From positions 1-33,770 of IMG/VR virus record IMGVR_UViG_3300036817_000055: a stretch of 33,770 nt of DNA; one strand, given 5' to 3'. A model generated the notes under the pieces. It did not search any database and was not told the DNA's origin. It saw only the letters and a program-made list of their open reading frames with translations. Source of the stretch: a virus. Below are positions 6,272 through 19,741 of the stretch, piece after piece (position 1 is the first letter of the stretch; every line of letters begins with the position of its first letter). A program made the position numbers and the translations under genes.

Positions 6272-6613
6272 ATGACCGATCCCAAACGCTTCACCACGGG
6301 CCGCTGGAGGGCTCTGGCGTGGTTCGACGATGTCGAGCGGGACCGGAACCTCGTGATGGGTCGGCGGACGCCGAGCCGGTGGATGGTCACGAAGATGATC
6401 GGGGCTGGCCAGTTGATGCGGGTCGAGACGAACCTCCGGACGGTGACCAAGCTGATCCTGACCGAGAAGGGCCGGGCCGATCTGGAGAGCAAGTGGACCC
6501 GGCGCGCTAACGGGTTCCAGCGAGCCAAACGGTCGGTAGAACGACGACGGCGCAATAAACTGCAAGCGTGGCAAGCCGGTACGGGTCAGGGTTCTGGAGC
6601 GCCAGCCAAGTAA
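6272..6613 (+). CDS. Winged-helix-like basic protein
   Basis: 113 residues from ATG 6272 (AAGGTGAG upstream; a GTG at 6263 would add three residues). The stretch TPSRWMVTKMIGAGQLMRVETNLRTVTKLILTEKGRADL resembles the recognition helix and wing of a winged-helix domain. The C-terminus is very basic (KRSVERRRRNK). The last 107 bases overlap the convergent holin-like gene on the other strand, so both 3' ends are constrained. It is perhaps a regulator; the call is tentative. Confidence 0.6.
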   Translation: MTDPKRFTTGRWRALAWFDDVERDRNLVMGRRTPSRWMVTKMIGAGQLMRVETNLRTVTKLILTEKGRADLESKWTRRANGFQRAKRSVERRRRNKLQAWQAGTGQGSGAPAK

Positions 6614-6908
6614 GGCCGATCCCGCCGCCGACCGACACGAGCAGGATCAGGCGGATGGCGAGCACCACGGCGAGCACGTTGACCGCGCCCATGACACCCG
6701 CCTTCCAAGCCGCCCGGTGCTGAAACTCCTGCTGGAAACTAGCCGTCGTCGTCGGCGTCGTCGGCGTCGTCTGCGAAAGGATCGCGTCCAAAGTTAGCTG
6801 TGGCGGTTGCGGCTCGTTTACCAGTCGCTCGCCGACCACCTGCATTCGCTTTGGCGAACGCGGTTGAGTATTTGCGGACTGCGGACCCTGATCCTCTTGT
6901 TGCGCCAT
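6507..6908 (-). CDS. Membrane protein, holin candidate
   Basis: 133 residues, behind AGGAAGGAAAACTTCA. The first 65 residues are hydrophilic and Gln/Pro/Thr-rich. Then come hydrophobic segments at about 72-98 (VMGAVNVLAVVLAIRLILLVSVGGGIGLTW, probably one long or two short passes) and 108-128 (LATLAVYCAVVVLPTVWLAG). A short C-terminal tail follows. It is the last gene of the long leftward block, a common place for a holin. The endolysin lies elsewhere (1169-2290). It overlaps the upstream gene by 170 bases in another frame and the winged-helix gene by 107 bases on the opposite strand. Confidence 0.7.
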   Translation of the reverse strand: MAQQEDQGPQSANTQPRSPKRMQVVGERLVNEPQPPQLTLDAILSQTTPTTPTTTASFQQEFQHRAAWKAGVMGAVNVLAVVLAIRLILLVSVGGGIGLTWLALQNPDPYRLATLAVYCAVVVLPTVWLAGTR

Positions 6909-14236: not shown

Positions 14237-14539
14237 TCAATCGCCCGGCTTGTCGCGGCCCCGGACCTGACGCGAAAGCAGGTTGCTGCTTTCCTGCGGC
14301 GGAGCGCGCGTGTTGTGCGAACCGATCGGGTCGAAGCCCTTCGGGCTGATCCTGTCCATGCCCATGTCGCTGCCCGGGCCGTCCGTCAACAGGCCGCCCG
14401 GACCAACGCGCGGTTCGGTCCCGAGGCGCAGCGGGCCGGCGACGGAGCGATCCGATCGCCGGAAGCCGTCGGGGGTGAGGAAGTCAGCGACCGGCTGCCG
14501 CTTCACTGAAGGAAATTCACCCTGCTTGCGTTCTGCCAT
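14237..14539 (-). CDS. Unknown hydrophilic protein
   Basis: 100 residues starting at the ATG of a TGATG overlap with the Arg-rich peptide gene upstream; GGAGGAAG precedes it. It is rich in Gly, Pro, Arg and Asp and probably disordered (SVKRQPVADFLTPDGFRRSDRSVAGPLRLG). I recognise no domain. Confidence 0.6.
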   Translation of the reverse strand: MAERKQGEFPSVKRQPVADFLTPDGFRRSDRSVAGPLRLGTEPRVGPGGLLTDGPGSDMGMDRISPKGFDPIGSHNTRAPPQESSNLLSRQVRGRDKPGD

Positions 14540-14780
14540 CACTTCCTCCGTCTGCGATGCCGGCGGGCCTTGCGAAGATTGCGCCGCGCGGCGTGTTTCT
14601 GCTTTCGTGTGGCCATGCGTGCCTCCCATAGGGCTGCATCTCGCTGCGGTAGCAGCGATGGTCATCCCGCCGGTAGAAGCCATGCGGGCACTTATGCGGC
14701 GTCCCCGGGCCGAACGGATGCGCCTGCACGATCGGCAGGCTTACCACCATTAGCGCGACGGCGAGGAGAAGCAGCTTCAT
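14517..14780 (-). CDS. Possible secreted small protein with signal peptide
   Basis: 87 residues behind GGAGCCGGAA. The N-terminus MKLLLLAVALMVVSLPIVQA is a textbook signal peptide with an Ala-x-type cleavage site. It is followed by HPFGPGTPHKCPHGFYRRDDHRCYR with two Cys that could pair. The last third overlaps the Arg-rich peptide gene in another frame and loses compositional coherence, so the functional part may be residues 1-50. The front overlaps the nuclease gene by 89 bases. Spanin or periplasmic roles are possible. Confidence 0.5.
   Translation of the reverse strand: MKLLLLAVALMVVSLPIVQAHPFGPGTPHKCPHGFYRRDDHRCYRSEMQPYGRHAWPHESRNTPRGAIFARPAGIADGGSDGRTQAG
14539..14616 (-). CDS. Arg/Lys-rich micropeptide (25 residues)
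   Basis: The reading frame starts at ATG 14616 with GGGAGGCACGC upstream and ends in TGATG with the next gene. It has 10 Arg, 4 Lys and 2 His in 25 residues, beginning MATRKQKHAARR. It is too short for standard gene finders. It is related in character to the peptides at 15102-15742, on the other side of the nuclease gene. DNA condensation or a packaging-related role is inference. Confidence 0.6.
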   Translation of the reverse strand: MATRKQKHAARRNLRKARRHRRRRK

Positions 14781-15105
14781 TTCCGGCTCCGATCAGGCGA
14801 ACCCACACCCGCCACGGGATGACGACAAGCGGTTCTTGGCGATCACGCTTCAGGAACAGCGCGTCATAGTCGCCAAGCCACCGCTCCAGCAACGTGAAGC
14901 CGCCGCCATCCTTGCGGCTTTTGACTTCGGCAACGGCCGGCGCTTCCTCGCGGCCGAACGCATAAATATCAATATCATGCGCCTGACCTCGAAAATGAGA
15001 AGCGCCGCTGAGAGGATACCTCTCGGCATGGACGCCGATGATTTTGTGTGCATTGACGATCTCACACTCGACGCGGTTACCCTTCCGCCGTTGACTTGCA
15101 CTCAT
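14692..15105 (-). CDS. Holliday-junction-resolvase-like PD-(D/E)XK nuclease
   Basis: 137 residues starting in an ATGA overlap. The archaeal-resolvase-like order is visible: N-terminal RRKGNRVECEIVNAH (E13), RYPLSGASHFRGQAHDIDIYAFG (D44, D46), AEVKSRKDGGGF (E60, K62), then LLERWLGDYDALFL and PLVVIPWRVW. This fits a junction or branched-DNA resolving enzyme, which phages use to clear replication intermediates before packaging. The place between tail and virion genes implies late expression. Residues after about 108 are low-complexity and overlap the signal-peptide gene. Confidence 0.8.
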   Translation of the reverse strand: MSASQRRKGNRVECEIVNAHKIIGVHAERYPLSGASHFRGQAHDIDIYAFGREEAPAVAEVKSRKDGGGFTLLERWLGDYDALFLKRDRQEPLVVIPWRVWVRLIGAGNEAASPRRRANGGKPADRAGASVRPGDAA

Positions 15106-15278
15106 CTCCGTTTCGCCCTCATTGGGCCGGTGCGTCCGCCCGGGCGCGGAGTGCGTCCGTTGCGTTCTCGGCCTCGCCCCCTTTTACCGCGCGACCAATC
15201 GCTTGGCCACGCATCGTCGGTCCACGGCATCCGGCATACCGGGCCGCGACCGCCCGGATGATGTTTGCGCCGGGCCAT
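15102..15278 (-). CDS. Arg-rich small protein (58 residues)
   Basis: ATG 15278 follows AGAGGCCGTGAG and the stop overlaps the nuclease start as ATGA. It contains 15 Arg and 3 Lys; the second half is a Gly-Arg tract (RGKRGRGRERNGRTPRPGGR). The middle WTDDAWPSDW is acidic and aromatic. It is coupled to four other basic microgenes upstream. It resembles protamine-like or RGG-type nucleic-acid binders; function is unknown. Confidence 0.65.
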   Translation of the reverse strand: MARRKHHPGGRGPVCRMPWTDDAWPSDWSRGKRGRGRERNGRTPRPGGRTGPMRAKRR

Positions 15279-15279
15279 C

Positions 15280-15423
15280 TCACGGCCTCTTGACGCGTCG
15301 GCCACGCCCTACGCCCTGCCGGTGTCCACGGGCGCGCTTGACACGACTTGTCGGGCGAAGCGTGCCAAAGCGACCGGCGGGATCGACGCGGGAGCGCGGC
15401 CCAAGGTTGATACCTCTAGCCAT
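15280..15423 (-). CDS. Arg-rich small protein (47 residues)
   Basis: ATG 15423 sits five bases after a perfect AGGAGG, and its first base is shared with the previous stop (TGATG). It has 13 Arg and 2 Lys (MARGINLGPRSR start, ending RGRRVKRP), with no acidic residue except one Asp. The strong ribosome binding site is the best evidence that this reading frame is translated. Confidence 0.65.
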   Translation of the reverse strand: MARGINLGPRSRVDPAGRFGTLRPTSRVKRARGHRQGVGRGRRVKRP

Positions 15424-15599
15424 CAAAGCCTCCTCATGGGTCTCATTGTTCGTTTGGAATTCAGGTGCGGCCCTTTGCGATACGAGTTAGGCCGGGGGGC
15501 AAAGCGGGGCAGCCGCCAGTCCCCCGGCTTGACCGGGTTTGCGGCCCTCATAAGATTTCGCGCATTGTTGTGGGCTGATCCAACGCGCGGGGCGGGCAT
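15423..15599 (-). CDS. Basic small protein (58 residues)
   Basis: The start at 15599 shares a base with the upstream stop (TAATG), with GGAGGCGGT in front. It has 11 Arg and 3 Lys in 58 residues, plus a Pro-rich middle (KPGDWRLPRFAPRPNSYRKG). The end contains the AGGAGG of the next gene. It is part of a five-gene basic peptide chain. No homologous family is recognised. Confidence 0.6.
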   Translation of the reverse strand: MPAPRVGSAHNNARNLMRAANPVKPGDWRLPRFAPRPNSYRKGPHLNSKRTMRPMRRL

Positions 15600-15673
15600 T
15601 ACCGCCTCCGCGACTTGCGTGCCCTGATGCGCCGGGCTCGGCGGGTCATTTTCAGGCGGCGCTTACGTGCCAT
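15599..15673 (-). CDS. Arg-rich micropeptide (24 residues)
   Basis: It starts at ATG 15673 behind GGGAGGCGCAC. It has 12 Arg and 3 Lys in 24 residues (MARKRRLKMTRRARRIRARK...). It ends in a TAATG overlap with the next gene. It is too short for normal ORF cut-offs, but the initiation signals are good and its composition matches its neighbours. Confidence 0.6.
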   Translation of the reverse strand: MARKRRLKMTRRARRIRARKSRRR

Positions 15674-15688
15674 GTGCGCCTCCCGGTT

Positions 15689-15742
15689 CTAACGCCGACG
15701 CCGTGAACGGCGAACGCGGCGACCTTTGCGTCTGCGTGCCAT
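15689..15742 (-). CDS. Arg-rich micropeptide (17 residues)
   Basis: The frame is MARRRKGRRVRRSRRRR, 11 Arg and 1 Lys of 17, starting at ATG 15742 behind GGGAGAAGAAGCAG. It is the first of the basic peptide chain, 35 bases after the stop of the nozzle-like tail gene. It is comparable in composition to protamines. It could bind DNA or a negatively charged virion surface. Confidence 0.55.
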   Translation of the reverse strand: MARRRKGRRVRRSRRRR

Positions 15743-15777: not shown

Positions 15778-17403
15778 TTAAGCGCCAAACAAAGTACGCT
15801 GCTCCCCGGCAACGTGCAAGCGCTCGATCGTGAAGTCTGGGGACAGGCTCATCAGGTCGATCTCTGCTGCGATGCCACCGCCCTCAATCGGCTGCGGCAG
15901 GATGTCATGGATTTTGCCGTCGGTGAGGTCGAACGCAACGTCCTGTATGCCGTTCGGCACGCCGCCGCCGCTCGTCTTCACGGTGCCGGTGAAACTGACG
16001 CCGCGCCGGAAGTTGTCTTGCAATTCCATGTACAGGCGTTTGAAATTCTTGATGGTCAGCATCGCGATCCCATTGCCGCGCAGCGCCTTGGTTGACAGTC
16101 GCTTCGGCAGTTGGTTGTCCGGCTGCGCGAACAACTGATAGAGCGACGTGCCGTCGGTGCCGTATGGCGTGATGACGCTGTCCTGCTCGTAGTGGCCGAT
16201 ATGCGTCAATTCCAAATTCTGGCTCGCGACCGACCAGAACTGCCGCCCCTGCGTCGGGTGCCACATCAGCAGCAGGCTTCGCGTCACGCCCCACGGATCG
16301 GTGAAGCGTCCATTGCAGAGCAGAACCCGGAAGCCGAACATGGTCGCCGAGCACATCGTCGGCAGGTAGAGCGAGGTGTCAAGTGTGTTGTAGACGTTCG
16401 TGACCTTGCCGCCGATCTCCTGCGCGTCGCCACCCTGCATCAGGAAGATGCCGGCGCCGTTGTACATGATCATGTAGCGCCCAATGCGGCCGACCGTGCG
16501 CGGGAAGCGGTGCCCCGCCATCGGATCGATGTTCGCATAGTTGAAGTTGGTGACGTATGGCGAGCCGGTGGCGCCTGTGCCGGACAATTGGATGTTGCTG
16601 ATCAGGTCGGTCGAACTGTCGCCGAACACGAACAGGTAGCCGGCACTCGCGGCCATATCCATAAAGCTATAGATCAGCTTGTCGCCGAAGTAGCCGAACG
16701 ATCCGCCGCCGTTGGCGGTCGAGAAGTCCGCGCCGTTCGACGGCGCGGAGAAGCTGACCACGTCCTTGCCGGCGACGAACAGCCGCTCCTGATAAACCTC
16801 CATGCAGTAGATGCCGGGTAAACCAGTTGGCATGACAGTCGCCGGCGGCGGCGAACCGCTCTCGGCTTGGTCGGTCAGCCAGTCCGGCGCGTTGTCGCCG
16901 GGCGAGTACAGGGTGTGGTTATCCCACGCGTATAGCCCCTTGGGCGAACCGATCAGCACACCGCCTTGCTGGCCTGTGGTGCTGCCGAAGAAGCGCGGGC
17001 GCCACACCTTGGCGCAGCCCCAGTATTGCGGCGCGACCGGCTCCCAAATCACTCCGATCCGCGTGACCGTCTTGAGGTCGAGGTCCACCTGATCGACGTT
17101 TCCGTCGGACAGAAACATCCAGCCAAAACGCCCGCCAGCAGGGGGGCCGGGTGCGGCAAACTGTGGAGTGGGATCGCCGATGAACCCGAAGAAGATACGT
17201 AGGATCGTAACGCCCGCTGGAGCGGTGTAGATCGCCGGTCCATGACCCCAGCAAGAGCGGAGGTTTCCGGGTCCGATCGCGAATAGGTTCTCATTCCAGA
17301 ACTCCTCTTGATCGTCGATGGTGCCGCGCGTGCTCTGCTGGTTCAGTCCTCTCCACTGCTCCAGCGTGTCTACCTCGGGAGGGTTGGCGCTCTGCGTTGG
17401 CAT
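15778..17403 (-). CDS. Tail nozzle / DNA-stabilisation-like structural protein
   Basis: 541 residues, behind GGGAAGAGA. The sequence is beta-rich with repeated blade-like units ending in aromatic strands (GIYCMEVYQERLFVAG, LIYSFMDMAASAGYLFVFGDSSTDLI, GRIGRYMIMYNGAGIFLM, RVLLCNGRF, RSLLLMWHPTQGRQFWSV). Beta-propeller tail proteins of short-tailed phages, such as the P22 gp10 class, have this look, so I propose a nozzle or hub. The assignment rests on pattern and on its place after the adaptor-like gene. A 21-bp operator copy lies upstream, inside the end of the preceding gene. Confidence 0.65.
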   Translation of the reverse strand: MPTQSANPPEVDTLEQWRGLNQQSTRGTIDDQEEFWNENLFAIGPGNLRSCWGHGPAIYTAPAGVTILRIFFGFIGDPTPQFAAPGPPAGGRFGWMFLSDGNVDQVDLDLKTVTRIGVIWEPVAPQYWGCAKVWRPRFFGSTTGQQGGVLIGSPKGLYAWDNHTLYSPGDNAPDWLTDQAESGSPPPATVMPTGLPGIYCMEVYQERLFVAGKDVVSFSAPSNGADFSTANGGGSFGYFGDKLIYSFMDMAASAGYLFVFGDSSTDLISNIQLSGTGATGSPYVTNFNYANIDPMAGHRFPRTVGRIGRYMIMYNGAGIFLMQGGDAQEIGGKVTNVYNTLDTSLYLPTMCSATMFGFRVLLCNGRFTDPWGVTRSLLLMWHPTQGRQFWSVASQNLELTHIGHYEQDSVITPYGTDGTSLYQLFAQPDNQLPKRLSTKALRGNGIAMLTIKNFKRLYMELQDNFRRGVSFTGTVKTSGGGVPNGIQDVAFDLTDGKIHDILPQPIEGGGIAAEIDLMSLSPDFTIERLHVAGEQRTLFGA

Positions 17404-17928: not shown

Positions 17929-18131
17929 TGTGGATTGAACCGCGCGGCGAACTGCCGCTTGGCCTCCGCCTCATCCAACATCATACAATCGAAGCAGACA
18001 TTCTTGCCGCCGGGGCCATAGGGCCGCAGTTCCTCGGTCTTGCCGCATATCTCGCATTTGCCGTCGTAGTCGTGCGGGTCACGGCGATCCATGATCGTGA
18101 CGTTGCCCTTGCGTTCAAATAGTTTCGCCAT
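17925..18131 (-). CDS. Small zinc-ribbon protein
   Basis: 68 residues. Two CxxC knuckles (KCEICGK and VCFDC) flank an LRPYGPGGK segment, giving a treble-clef or ribbon type zinc site. The C-terminal helix is EAEAKRQFAARF. A start at an internal MDRRDPHD is also possible. It overlaps the oxygenase end by 17 bases and the next gene by four. Similar ribbons in phages have no assigned role. Confidence 0.75.
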   Translation of the reverse strand: MAKLFERKGNVTIMDRRDPHDYDGKCEICGKTEELRPYGPGGKNVCFDCMMLDEAEAKRQFAARFNPQ

Positions 18132-18714
18132 GGTTGGTGTCCGTCTTGAACATCAGCGTGACGCGCAGCACCGGGCAGGTCCGCGAGACCCCGCGCGCCA
18201 CATGCGGGATCGTGCCATCGAACACCAGCATCCGGTTCGGGCGCGGGTAGACGCTGGCGATGATATCGGTTTTGTCTTCGTTGAAGAAGACGGTTTCGCC
18301 GCCCCAGTCAGGATGCCAGCGTTGGTGCGGGTAGTACACGCAGGTGAAGGTGCCCGGTACGGTGCTGTCGGTGTGCAGCGTGCCGTCGCTGCCATAGGTG
18401 TGGCCGTTGGCGTAGCAACGGATCAATCGATGTCCAAGCAACGGCCCGTTTGCCAATGACAGCCACAAGCCATGGATCAGGGGGAACGCACGCAATCCCG
18501 GCTCGCAGTCGTAGACCTCTCCGTCAGCGGGGCGGTGCCCGCCAAAATGCCGATGCCAGAACGCGAACGTGTCAATCTTCTCGCTTGACTTCCATCCAAA
18601 CTTCCACGCGGCCTCGCCGCCGGCATGGTGCAGGTAATTGTTGACATCTCGCCGCCGCTCGTCCGGCAGTACGTCGTCGTGGATGCGATAATCAGCCGTC
18701 GCCACCGTCGCCAC
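18115..18714 (-). CDS. 2-oxoglutarate/Fe(II)-dependent oxygenase (prolyl-4-hydroxylase-like)
   Basis: About 199 residues if started at GTG 18714; GTG 18705 is an alternative, and no ATG is available near the fold start. The iron triad is H114-x-D116 (LHTDST) and H171 (GTIPHVAR). The likely 2-oxoglutarate Arg is R184 (VLRVTLMFK). The double-stranded beta-helix core reads TFTCVYYPHQRWHPDWGGETVFF and RPNRMLVFDGTIPH. The N-terminal 24 bases overlap the Gly-rich gene. Family members hydroxylate Pro, Lys, Asn or nucleobases; the substrate is unknown. Neighbouring Gly/Pro-rich virion proteins are possible targets, which is inference. Confidence 0.85.
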   Translation of the reverse strand: MATVATADYRIHDDVLPDERRRDVNNYLHHAGGEAAWKFGWKSSEKIDTFAFWHRHFGGHRPADGEVYDCEPGLRAFPLIHGLWLSLANGPLLGHRLIRCYANGHTYGSDGTLHTDSTVPGTFTCVYYPHQRWHPDWGGETVFFNEDKTDIIASVYPRPNRMLVFDGTIPHVARGVSRTCPVLRVTLMFKTDTNHGETI

Positions 18715-19741
18715 CACCACCACCACCGTCGCCTCCGCCGCCTCCGCCGCCGTCGCCGCCACCACCACCATCGCCAGCGCCAGCGCCGCCACCGTCAGCG
18801 CCGCCACCGTCAGCGCCGCCACCGTCAGCGCCACCACCGTCAGCGCCGTCGGCGCCATCCGTGCCGTCATCGCCGGTAGTGCCGTCAACACCGGCATCAA
18901 CGCCAGTATCAGCGCTCACACCATCCATGCCCGGGCCGAAGCCGCTCGGGCCGAAGCCGCCGAAGCCCTCGCCCATGCCGAAACCCTCACCGAGGCCAGT
19001 GCCAACGCCCGGTCCCACGGCGGCGCCGATGCCTGCATCCTCGGCGCCATAGCCCATGCCCGGGCCGAAGCCGGCCGGGCCGAAGCCGCCATAGCCCTGA
19101 CCCATGCCGCCCGGGCCGAAGCCGCCCAAGCCGACGCCCATGCCGACGCCTTCAGCGCCGGTAATGCCTGCGGCTGGACCGAAGCCATCGACGCCCGGTC
19201 CGCTGACGCCCGGAGCCCCGACGCCATCGACGCCCGGAGCACCGGCACCCGGAGCACCGGCACCCGGTCCGCCGACACCAGCACCGCCCGGTCCGCCGAC
19301 ACCACCGCCCGGTCCGCCGACACCAGCACCATCGACACCACCGCCGACGCCGGCACCACCACCACCGACACCACCACCACCGACGCCAGCGCCATCGCCG
19401 CCACCGCCACCGCCGAAGCCGCCGAAGCCACCGCCGCCGCCGAAGCCATCGCCTCCGAAGCCACCGCCGCCGTAGCCACCGCCCTTACTGCTGTTTGGAT
19501 ACGCGCCGCCGTAGCTGCCGGCTGGAGCCAGTCCGCCACCGGGAGCCATGCCGTCGCCGCCGGCTGGAGCCAGTCCGCCACCGCCCATACCTCCGGCGCT
19601 CATCAGGGTGTTCATCATCGAGTGCAGCGCACCGATTGCCTGTGGGCTCCAGCCGGCGGTGGTGTTGGGGTTTGCATTCGCCAGTTGGCGGAGTGACGGT
19701 GAGAGGGTGCCTATTTGACCCCGGACGTTTGGGTTTGGCAT
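18692..19741 (-). CDS. Extremely Gly-rich structural protein
   Basis: 349 residues, starting in a TGATG overlap. Residues 1-50 are ordinary (MPNPNVRGQIGTLSPSLRQLANANPNTTAG, then a short helix). After that the protein is mostly Gly with Ala, Val, Pro and Asp: a GGFGGDGFGG part, a GPG/GAPG part (about 155-185, short collagen-like triplets but not a regular Gly-X-Y array), two copies of GGFGP[AS]GFGPGM, and an Asp-Gly tail (ADGGG four times, then GGGDGG). It has no fold I can name. It lies between an adaptor-like gene and the oxygenase. Repeat length probably varies by slippage. Confidence 0.7.
   Translation of the reverse strand: MPNPNVRGQIGTLSPSLRQLANANPNTTAGWSPQAIGALHSMMNTLMSAGGMGGGGLAPAGGDGMAPGGGLAPAGSYGGAYPNSSKGGGYGGGGFGGDGFGGGGGFGGFGGGGGGDGAGVGGGGVGGGGAGVGGGVDGAGVGGPGGGVGGPGGAGVGGPGAGAPGAGAPGVDGVGAPGVSGPGVDGFGPAAGITGAEGVGMGVGLGGFGPGGMGQGYGGFGPAGFGPGMGYGAEDAGIGAAVGPGVGTGLGEGFGMGEGFGGFGPSGFGPGMDGVSADTGVDAGVDGTTGDDGTDGADGADGGGADGGGADGGGADGGGAGAGDGGGGGDGGGGGGGDGGGGGGDGGDG

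Follow-up and report, generated by a model that had tools for sequence, protein, structure and literature searches.

The late operon of the virus analysed here contains an array of short arginine-rich ORFs which, judged by their conservation in related sequences, are real coding sequences under purifying selection within a structural operon. The window, that is the whole stretch of DNA that was analysed (33,770 nucleotides, virus record IMGVR_UViG_3300036817_000055), carries six of these ORFs. We propose that such late Arg-rich micropeptides bind the phage DNA and partly neutralise it at about the time of packaging, and that they probably end up in the head, a reading to which we give an even chance.

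Short basic ORFs in the late operon

The late genes of this 33.8-kb record are located on the minus strand, in the order terminase, SU10-like portal, capsid (family phrog_9953), TIG-domain protein, 541-aa tail-type protein, array, nuclease and phage-lysozyme internal protein. The array is placed between the tail gene and the internal-virion genes and flanks the resolvase-type nuclease gene (Table 1). A preliminary description of this DNA had reported a chain of protamine-like peptides in a tail operon; the run of virion genes agrees with this location, the Arg-rich composition was correctly described, and the lengths and arginine counts of all six ORFs were exact. The peptides are, however, not a homogeneous protamine set. 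The K+R content is 56-71% in A, B and F and 24-32% in C, D and E, and the latter three have conserved non-basic cores (WRLPKWRPRL-SYRKG in window peptide C, MPWSDDAWPSDW and SPRPGGRTGPVR in peptide E). All six are small and Arg/Lys-rich, and one copy of each gives a net charge of +82.

Every peptide had been assigned a ribosome site: GGAG to AGGAGG sites are present for A, B, C, D and F, but E has GAGG only. Most of the genes are indeed linked by overlaps; A and B are separated by 15 nt and D and E by 1 nt. None of the ORFs had been considered long enough for standard annotation, which applies to the ORFs of 17-25 aa, the only ones excluded by the usual gene-caller cut-off of 90 nt, but not to those of 47-58 aa, which ordinary gene callers can call.

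Table 1. Array genes and their neighbours in the window.
Feature	Position	Strand	Sequence features	Ribosome site and linkage
541-aa tail-type protein	15778..17403	-	directly upstream of array; query for gathering relatives	
Peptide A, 17 aa, 11 R	15689..15742	-	MARRRKGRRVRRSRRRR, poly-Arg	GGAG site 9 nt upstream
Peptide B, 24 aa, 12 R	15599..15673	-	motif TRRARRIRAR	GGAGG site
Peptide C, 58 aa, 11 R	15423..15599	-	core WRLP+[FW]xPRxxSYRKG	GGAGG site; TAATG overlap with B
Peptide D, 47 aa, 13 R	15280..15423	-	LGPRSRVDPAG core, Arg-rich tail	AGGAGG site; TGATG overlap with C
Peptide E, 58 aa, 15 R	15102..15278	-	MPWTDDAWPSDW core, PRPGGRTGP near C-terminus	GAGG site; ATGA overlap with nuclease gene
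RusA-like / PDDEXK nuclease	14692..15105	-	phrog_244 RusA-like Holliday junction resolvase, 1.9e-9	
Peptide F, 25 aa, 10 R	14539..14616	-	motif ARRNLRKAR	GGAGG site; TGATG overlap with next gene
100-aa gene	14237..14539	-	AGPLRLGT motif	GGAGG site; coupled to peptide F

Four ORFs of the array interval passed a strict test that required 10-70 aa, a K+R content of 25% or more and a ribosome site of GGAG or better. The 500 dinucleotide shuffles averaged 0.15 such ORFs and never exceeded 2, and outside the interval the two strands of the window together yielded a single weak 16-aa match. RNA structure was rejected as the conserved element of the window array (z -0.03), and a scan of the window with Rfam gave zero matches.

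Conservation in relatives and in a second clade

A search with the tail-type protein returned twelve relatives with 53-88% identity, and an alignment search with this protein gave 80 loci, which overlap with the set of twelve. A close relative of the window was not found in the named-phage collection, nor was a relative of the tail gene found in the collection of genome contigs. Across about 80 related contigs, the corresponding slot contains 3-9 Arg-rich sense-strand ORFs per locus (median 6) when weaker ribosome sites and family members are counted in; a strict count for the 62 loci with full downstream sequence gives 2-7 peptides. In these 62 loci, 250 of the 270 sense matches are located 0-2 kb after the tail gene, compared to one antisense match there, and a 1-nt overlap is the commonest arrangement of adjacent array ORFs. 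The slot is occupied in all relatives with sufficient sequence, and in many of them a homologue of the 100-aa gene with the AGPLRLGT motif follows just 3' of the array.

In most relatives the array starts with an Arg-rich ORF of 13-26 aa, the counterpart of peptide A. The motif families B, C, D, E, F and G (MVLVPASR) occur in 57, 34, 60, 60, 29 and 14 of 68 loci, respectively; a separate scan with peptide D gave 68 loci. All six motifs are absent from three divergent loci, whose slots still contain Arg-rich ORFs. Values of dN/dS, which are descriptive since the sequence pairs are non-independent, are 0.07-0.22 for the array families, and 0.07-0.24 once the codons of the defining motif and the final four codons are excluded; the adjacent tail gene has a comparable value (0.19). 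By family they amount to about 0.11 (B), 0.13-0.14 (C), 0.12-0.13 (D), 0.22-0.24 (E) and 0.12-0.14 (F), and purifying selection persists outside the defining motifs. Loss of the frames in related phages, broken starts or a dN/dS near 1 had been named as findings that would speak against the peptides; the relatives retain the frames, most starts and ribosome sites are preserved, and the dN/dS values are well under 1. The array peptides are thus conserved at the protein level in the virion gene region.

The summed net charge per locus has a mean of +72 in the relatives. The idea that each phage keeps to a constant total charge was tested and found no support; the charge is not buffered against the number of peptides. 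In some loci (L007, L008, L013, L022, L045 and L079) the first peptide has a non-basic N-terminus (LDFTE, LTHN, LQAN) followed by a poly-Arg tail, and these N-termini might be a cleavage or docking segment. Searching the phage collection with B, D and F by tblastn gave zero matches, for which low-complexity filtering is possibly responsible. A scan with the B alignment gave 127 pattern matches, of which 0 were confirmed, and a general DNA pattern scan for Arg/Lys runs returned mostly noise.

The capsid and tail proteins of MW202753 and MW202825 (Manatee Spring) are homologous to those of the window; the 541-aa tail-type protein, whose AlphaFold model is poor (pLDDT 45.9), corresponds to a 662-aa tail-region protein of MW202753 (hhalign 98%). 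In this second clade the capsid protein is 38% identical and the GC content is 40-51%. One or usually two Lys/Arg peptides of 12-14 aa with AGGA to AGGAGG sites (for example MYKKMKRGRKTRR and MARKARKGRKARK) are encoded between the portal and capsid genes in 39 of 40 loci, so that the operon position of the peptides differs between the two clades. Besides these tiny peptides, almost nothing passes the filter in the 40 loci. A direct scan for the second peptide gave at least 120 matches, and clade capsid, portal or terminase genes were present in 76 of the 77 loci checked among the matches listed. The Arg and Lys codons of the peptides turn over synonymously, and CGT/CGC account for 96% of the Arg codons, a bias like that of highly expressed genes; the capsid gene has 78%. 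In the GenBank entries MW202753 and MW202825, hypothetical ORFs that overlap the peptides on the opposite strand are annotated in their place.

A conserved element of about 55 nt is located between the two tiny peptides (L162:2545-2622, same interval in L163 and L170-L249). No match to it was found in Rfam; two hairpins are predicted, the second with the loop TRTGGCTG, and compensatory changes occur at 4 of 10 pairs.

No comparable cassette was found in isolates with more distantly related capsid proteins (Bradyrhizobium ppBjS10J-1, Stenotrophomonas BUCT555, Myxococcus Mx8 and Mx9), and its function is therefore not general.

Proposed function and known basic viral proteins

The composition of the peptides suggests DNA binding, their operon position suggests late expression, and analogy suggests that they are present in the virion. 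The array would be a modular, late-expressed cassette of mostly disordered Arg-rich micropeptides with the phage's own DNA as target. Produced together with tail and internal-virion proteins, the peptides would coat and partly neutralise debranched DNA around packaging and would probably enter the head with it, doing a job like that of phiX174 J, adenovirus mu and baculovirus P6.9. A, B, F and G may act mainly via their charge; C, D and E, with basic tails and a short conserved core, may dock on a capsid, portal or internal protein, and because these cores are conserved and non-basic the three peptides probably also touch a protein partner. With about 400 copies of each window peptide, a number assumed from the typical capsid-protein number of a T=7 head, a 42-kb genome would have roughly 40% of its phosphates neutralised. 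Non-specific DNA binding is known for synthetic basic peptides derived from P64 of an ascovirus (PMC6163548). What counts against a DNA-neutralising function is that motor-packaging phages have been described as a group of their own: their capsid proteins are not charged in this way, and Mg2+ and polyamines are proposed as counter-ions (PMC7096446).

More tentatively, some motor-packaging tailed phages may possess a phage 'chromatin', in which a modular, exchangeable set of protamine-like micropeptides, each 12-75 residues long, neutralises some of the charge of the genome inside the capsid. On ejection these peptides may accompany the DNA and protect it at entry. We regard such a 'chromatin' as possible rather than probable; if it exists, genes of this class would be widespread among uncultivated phages and for the most part unannotated. 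Tailed phages are usually pictured as packing DNA by a motor and small counter-ions, and a conserved peptide set would change that for abundant uncultivated phages. Such a set would also reveal genes of a size (12-25 aa) that gene callers miss and would supply natural DNA-condensing peptides.

The J protein of phiX174 has a basic part for DNA and a short aromatic part for the capsid. Like the array peptides, this Microviridae protein is tiny, very basic and made with the virion genes. J itself is found in mature virions (PMC7096446). However, J is the one such peptide of an ssDNA icosahedral phage without a motor, whereas an array holds 3-9 peptides and the window phage has terminase, portal and tailed-phage capsid genes. 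In addition, the array peptides have no Pfam match up to E 10 except an irrelevant one (short queries limit the sensitivity). Small Arg-rich proteins of the baculovirus P6.9 and adenovirus mu class condense the genome of dsDNA viruses (PMC6163548, PMC12159748). The array peptides are also small, Arg-rich and encoded by a dsDNA virus, but P6.9 and mu belong to eukaryotic viruses, P6.9 is regulated by phosphorylation and no sequence match to the array was found. The internal head proteins of T4 are larger than the array peptides. IPI-IPIII are small proteins packed with tailed-phage DNA in hundreds of copies (PMC9958956), but they are not micropeptides. The open-access literature, which was covered in part, contained no description of such a peptide set for tailed phages. 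Small basic viral core proteins are a kind already known, of which the array would be a modular set in tailed dsDNA phages.

The nuclease slot and alternative explanations

The window nuclease has a Pfam match to PDDEXK_15 below the cut-off. In relatives its slot is taken by a VRR-NUC (PF08774; phrog_5702) or a RuvC-type enzyme (phrog_1770), and the closest PDB structure to the latter is the plant chloroplast MOC1 (6kvn, E 2.7e-11). Three unrelated resolvase-type families interchange in one slot (L044:6296-6823, L026:6399-6875, L021:6258-6659). At L014:6305-6871, peptide E and the resolvase gene are separated by an inserted HNH_3 endonuclease gene, which is probably a homing element. In T4, Holliday junction resolvases remove branches that stall packaging, and the resolvase gp49 is a portal-binding protein that rescues packaging once it has stalled (PMC9958956). 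The interchangeable nucleases beside the array point to a role in late DNA processing and packaging, and non-homologous nuclease exchange next to a persistent array suggests one functional neighbourhood preparing DNA for packaging.

The strongest rival explanation is that the peptides bind nucleic acids inside the infected cell without taking part in packaging, by compacting or shielding replicated phage DNA, assisting the resolvase at branched DNA or compacting the host nucleoid. The array stays around a resolvase-type gene while the nuclease type swaps, as would be expected in this case, and the composition fits any nucleic acid; we nevertheless consider this explanation unlikely, as the genes are located in the virion-structure operon of both clades and the second-clade pair lies between portal and capsid genes.

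Alternatively, the peptides might act as an assembly glue, binding acidic surfaces of capsid, portal or internal proteins and not DNA. The aromatic/proline cores conserved in C, D and E and the structural location are consistent with this, and in T4 small internal proteins are packaged in hundreds of copies although assembly does not require them (PMC9958956). A, B, F, G and the 13-aa second-clade peptides are, however, mostly Arg/Lys, and charge is kept through synonymous codon turnover, which makes this function improbable.

We consider it slightly more doubtful still that the peptides are cationic lysis or antibacterial peptides like the disruptins, targeting the envelope or ribosomes. Disruptins, which act on the outer membrane, are likewise small cationic phage peptides, and a simple scan of the window, which is incomplete, for hydropathy and lipoboxes recognised no spanin. 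Yet the array is Arg-rich and not amphipathic, and hydrophobic residues are scarce in A, B and F. Moreover, it does not adjoin lysis genes: the amidase gene, at 1169-2290, and the holin candidate, at 6507-6908, are both distant. A phage can have up to nine distinct peptides, and adjacency to tail and resolvase genes is conserved. A toxin-like role, raised in the preliminary description, found no support in this analysis.

Arginine-rich RNA-binding motifs have a similar length and Arg content, but regulation of antitermination or translation by the peptides is very improbable given the late operon, the several different peptides, and the interval and window without special RNA structure or Rfam match. 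Although random frames are Arg-richer at high GC, an artefact of GC-rich noise, or of short ORFs merely coupling nuclease translation, can be dismissed on account of the shuffles, the sense-strand positional enrichment, dN/dS and the second clade, whose GC content of 40-51% excludes GC bias.

Two further ORFs of the window are worth mentioning. Overlapping peptide F in another frame, the ORF at 14517-14780 (-) has an N-terminal signal-like hydrophobic segment and HKCPHGFYRRDDHRCYR; a similar secreted-type ORF is present in locus L012. The protein encoded at 18115-18900 (-) carries the PHROG label DNA endonuclease V and a 2OG-Fe(II) oxygenase domain in Pfam (PF13640, 7.1e-10), and the PHROG name looks wrong for it.
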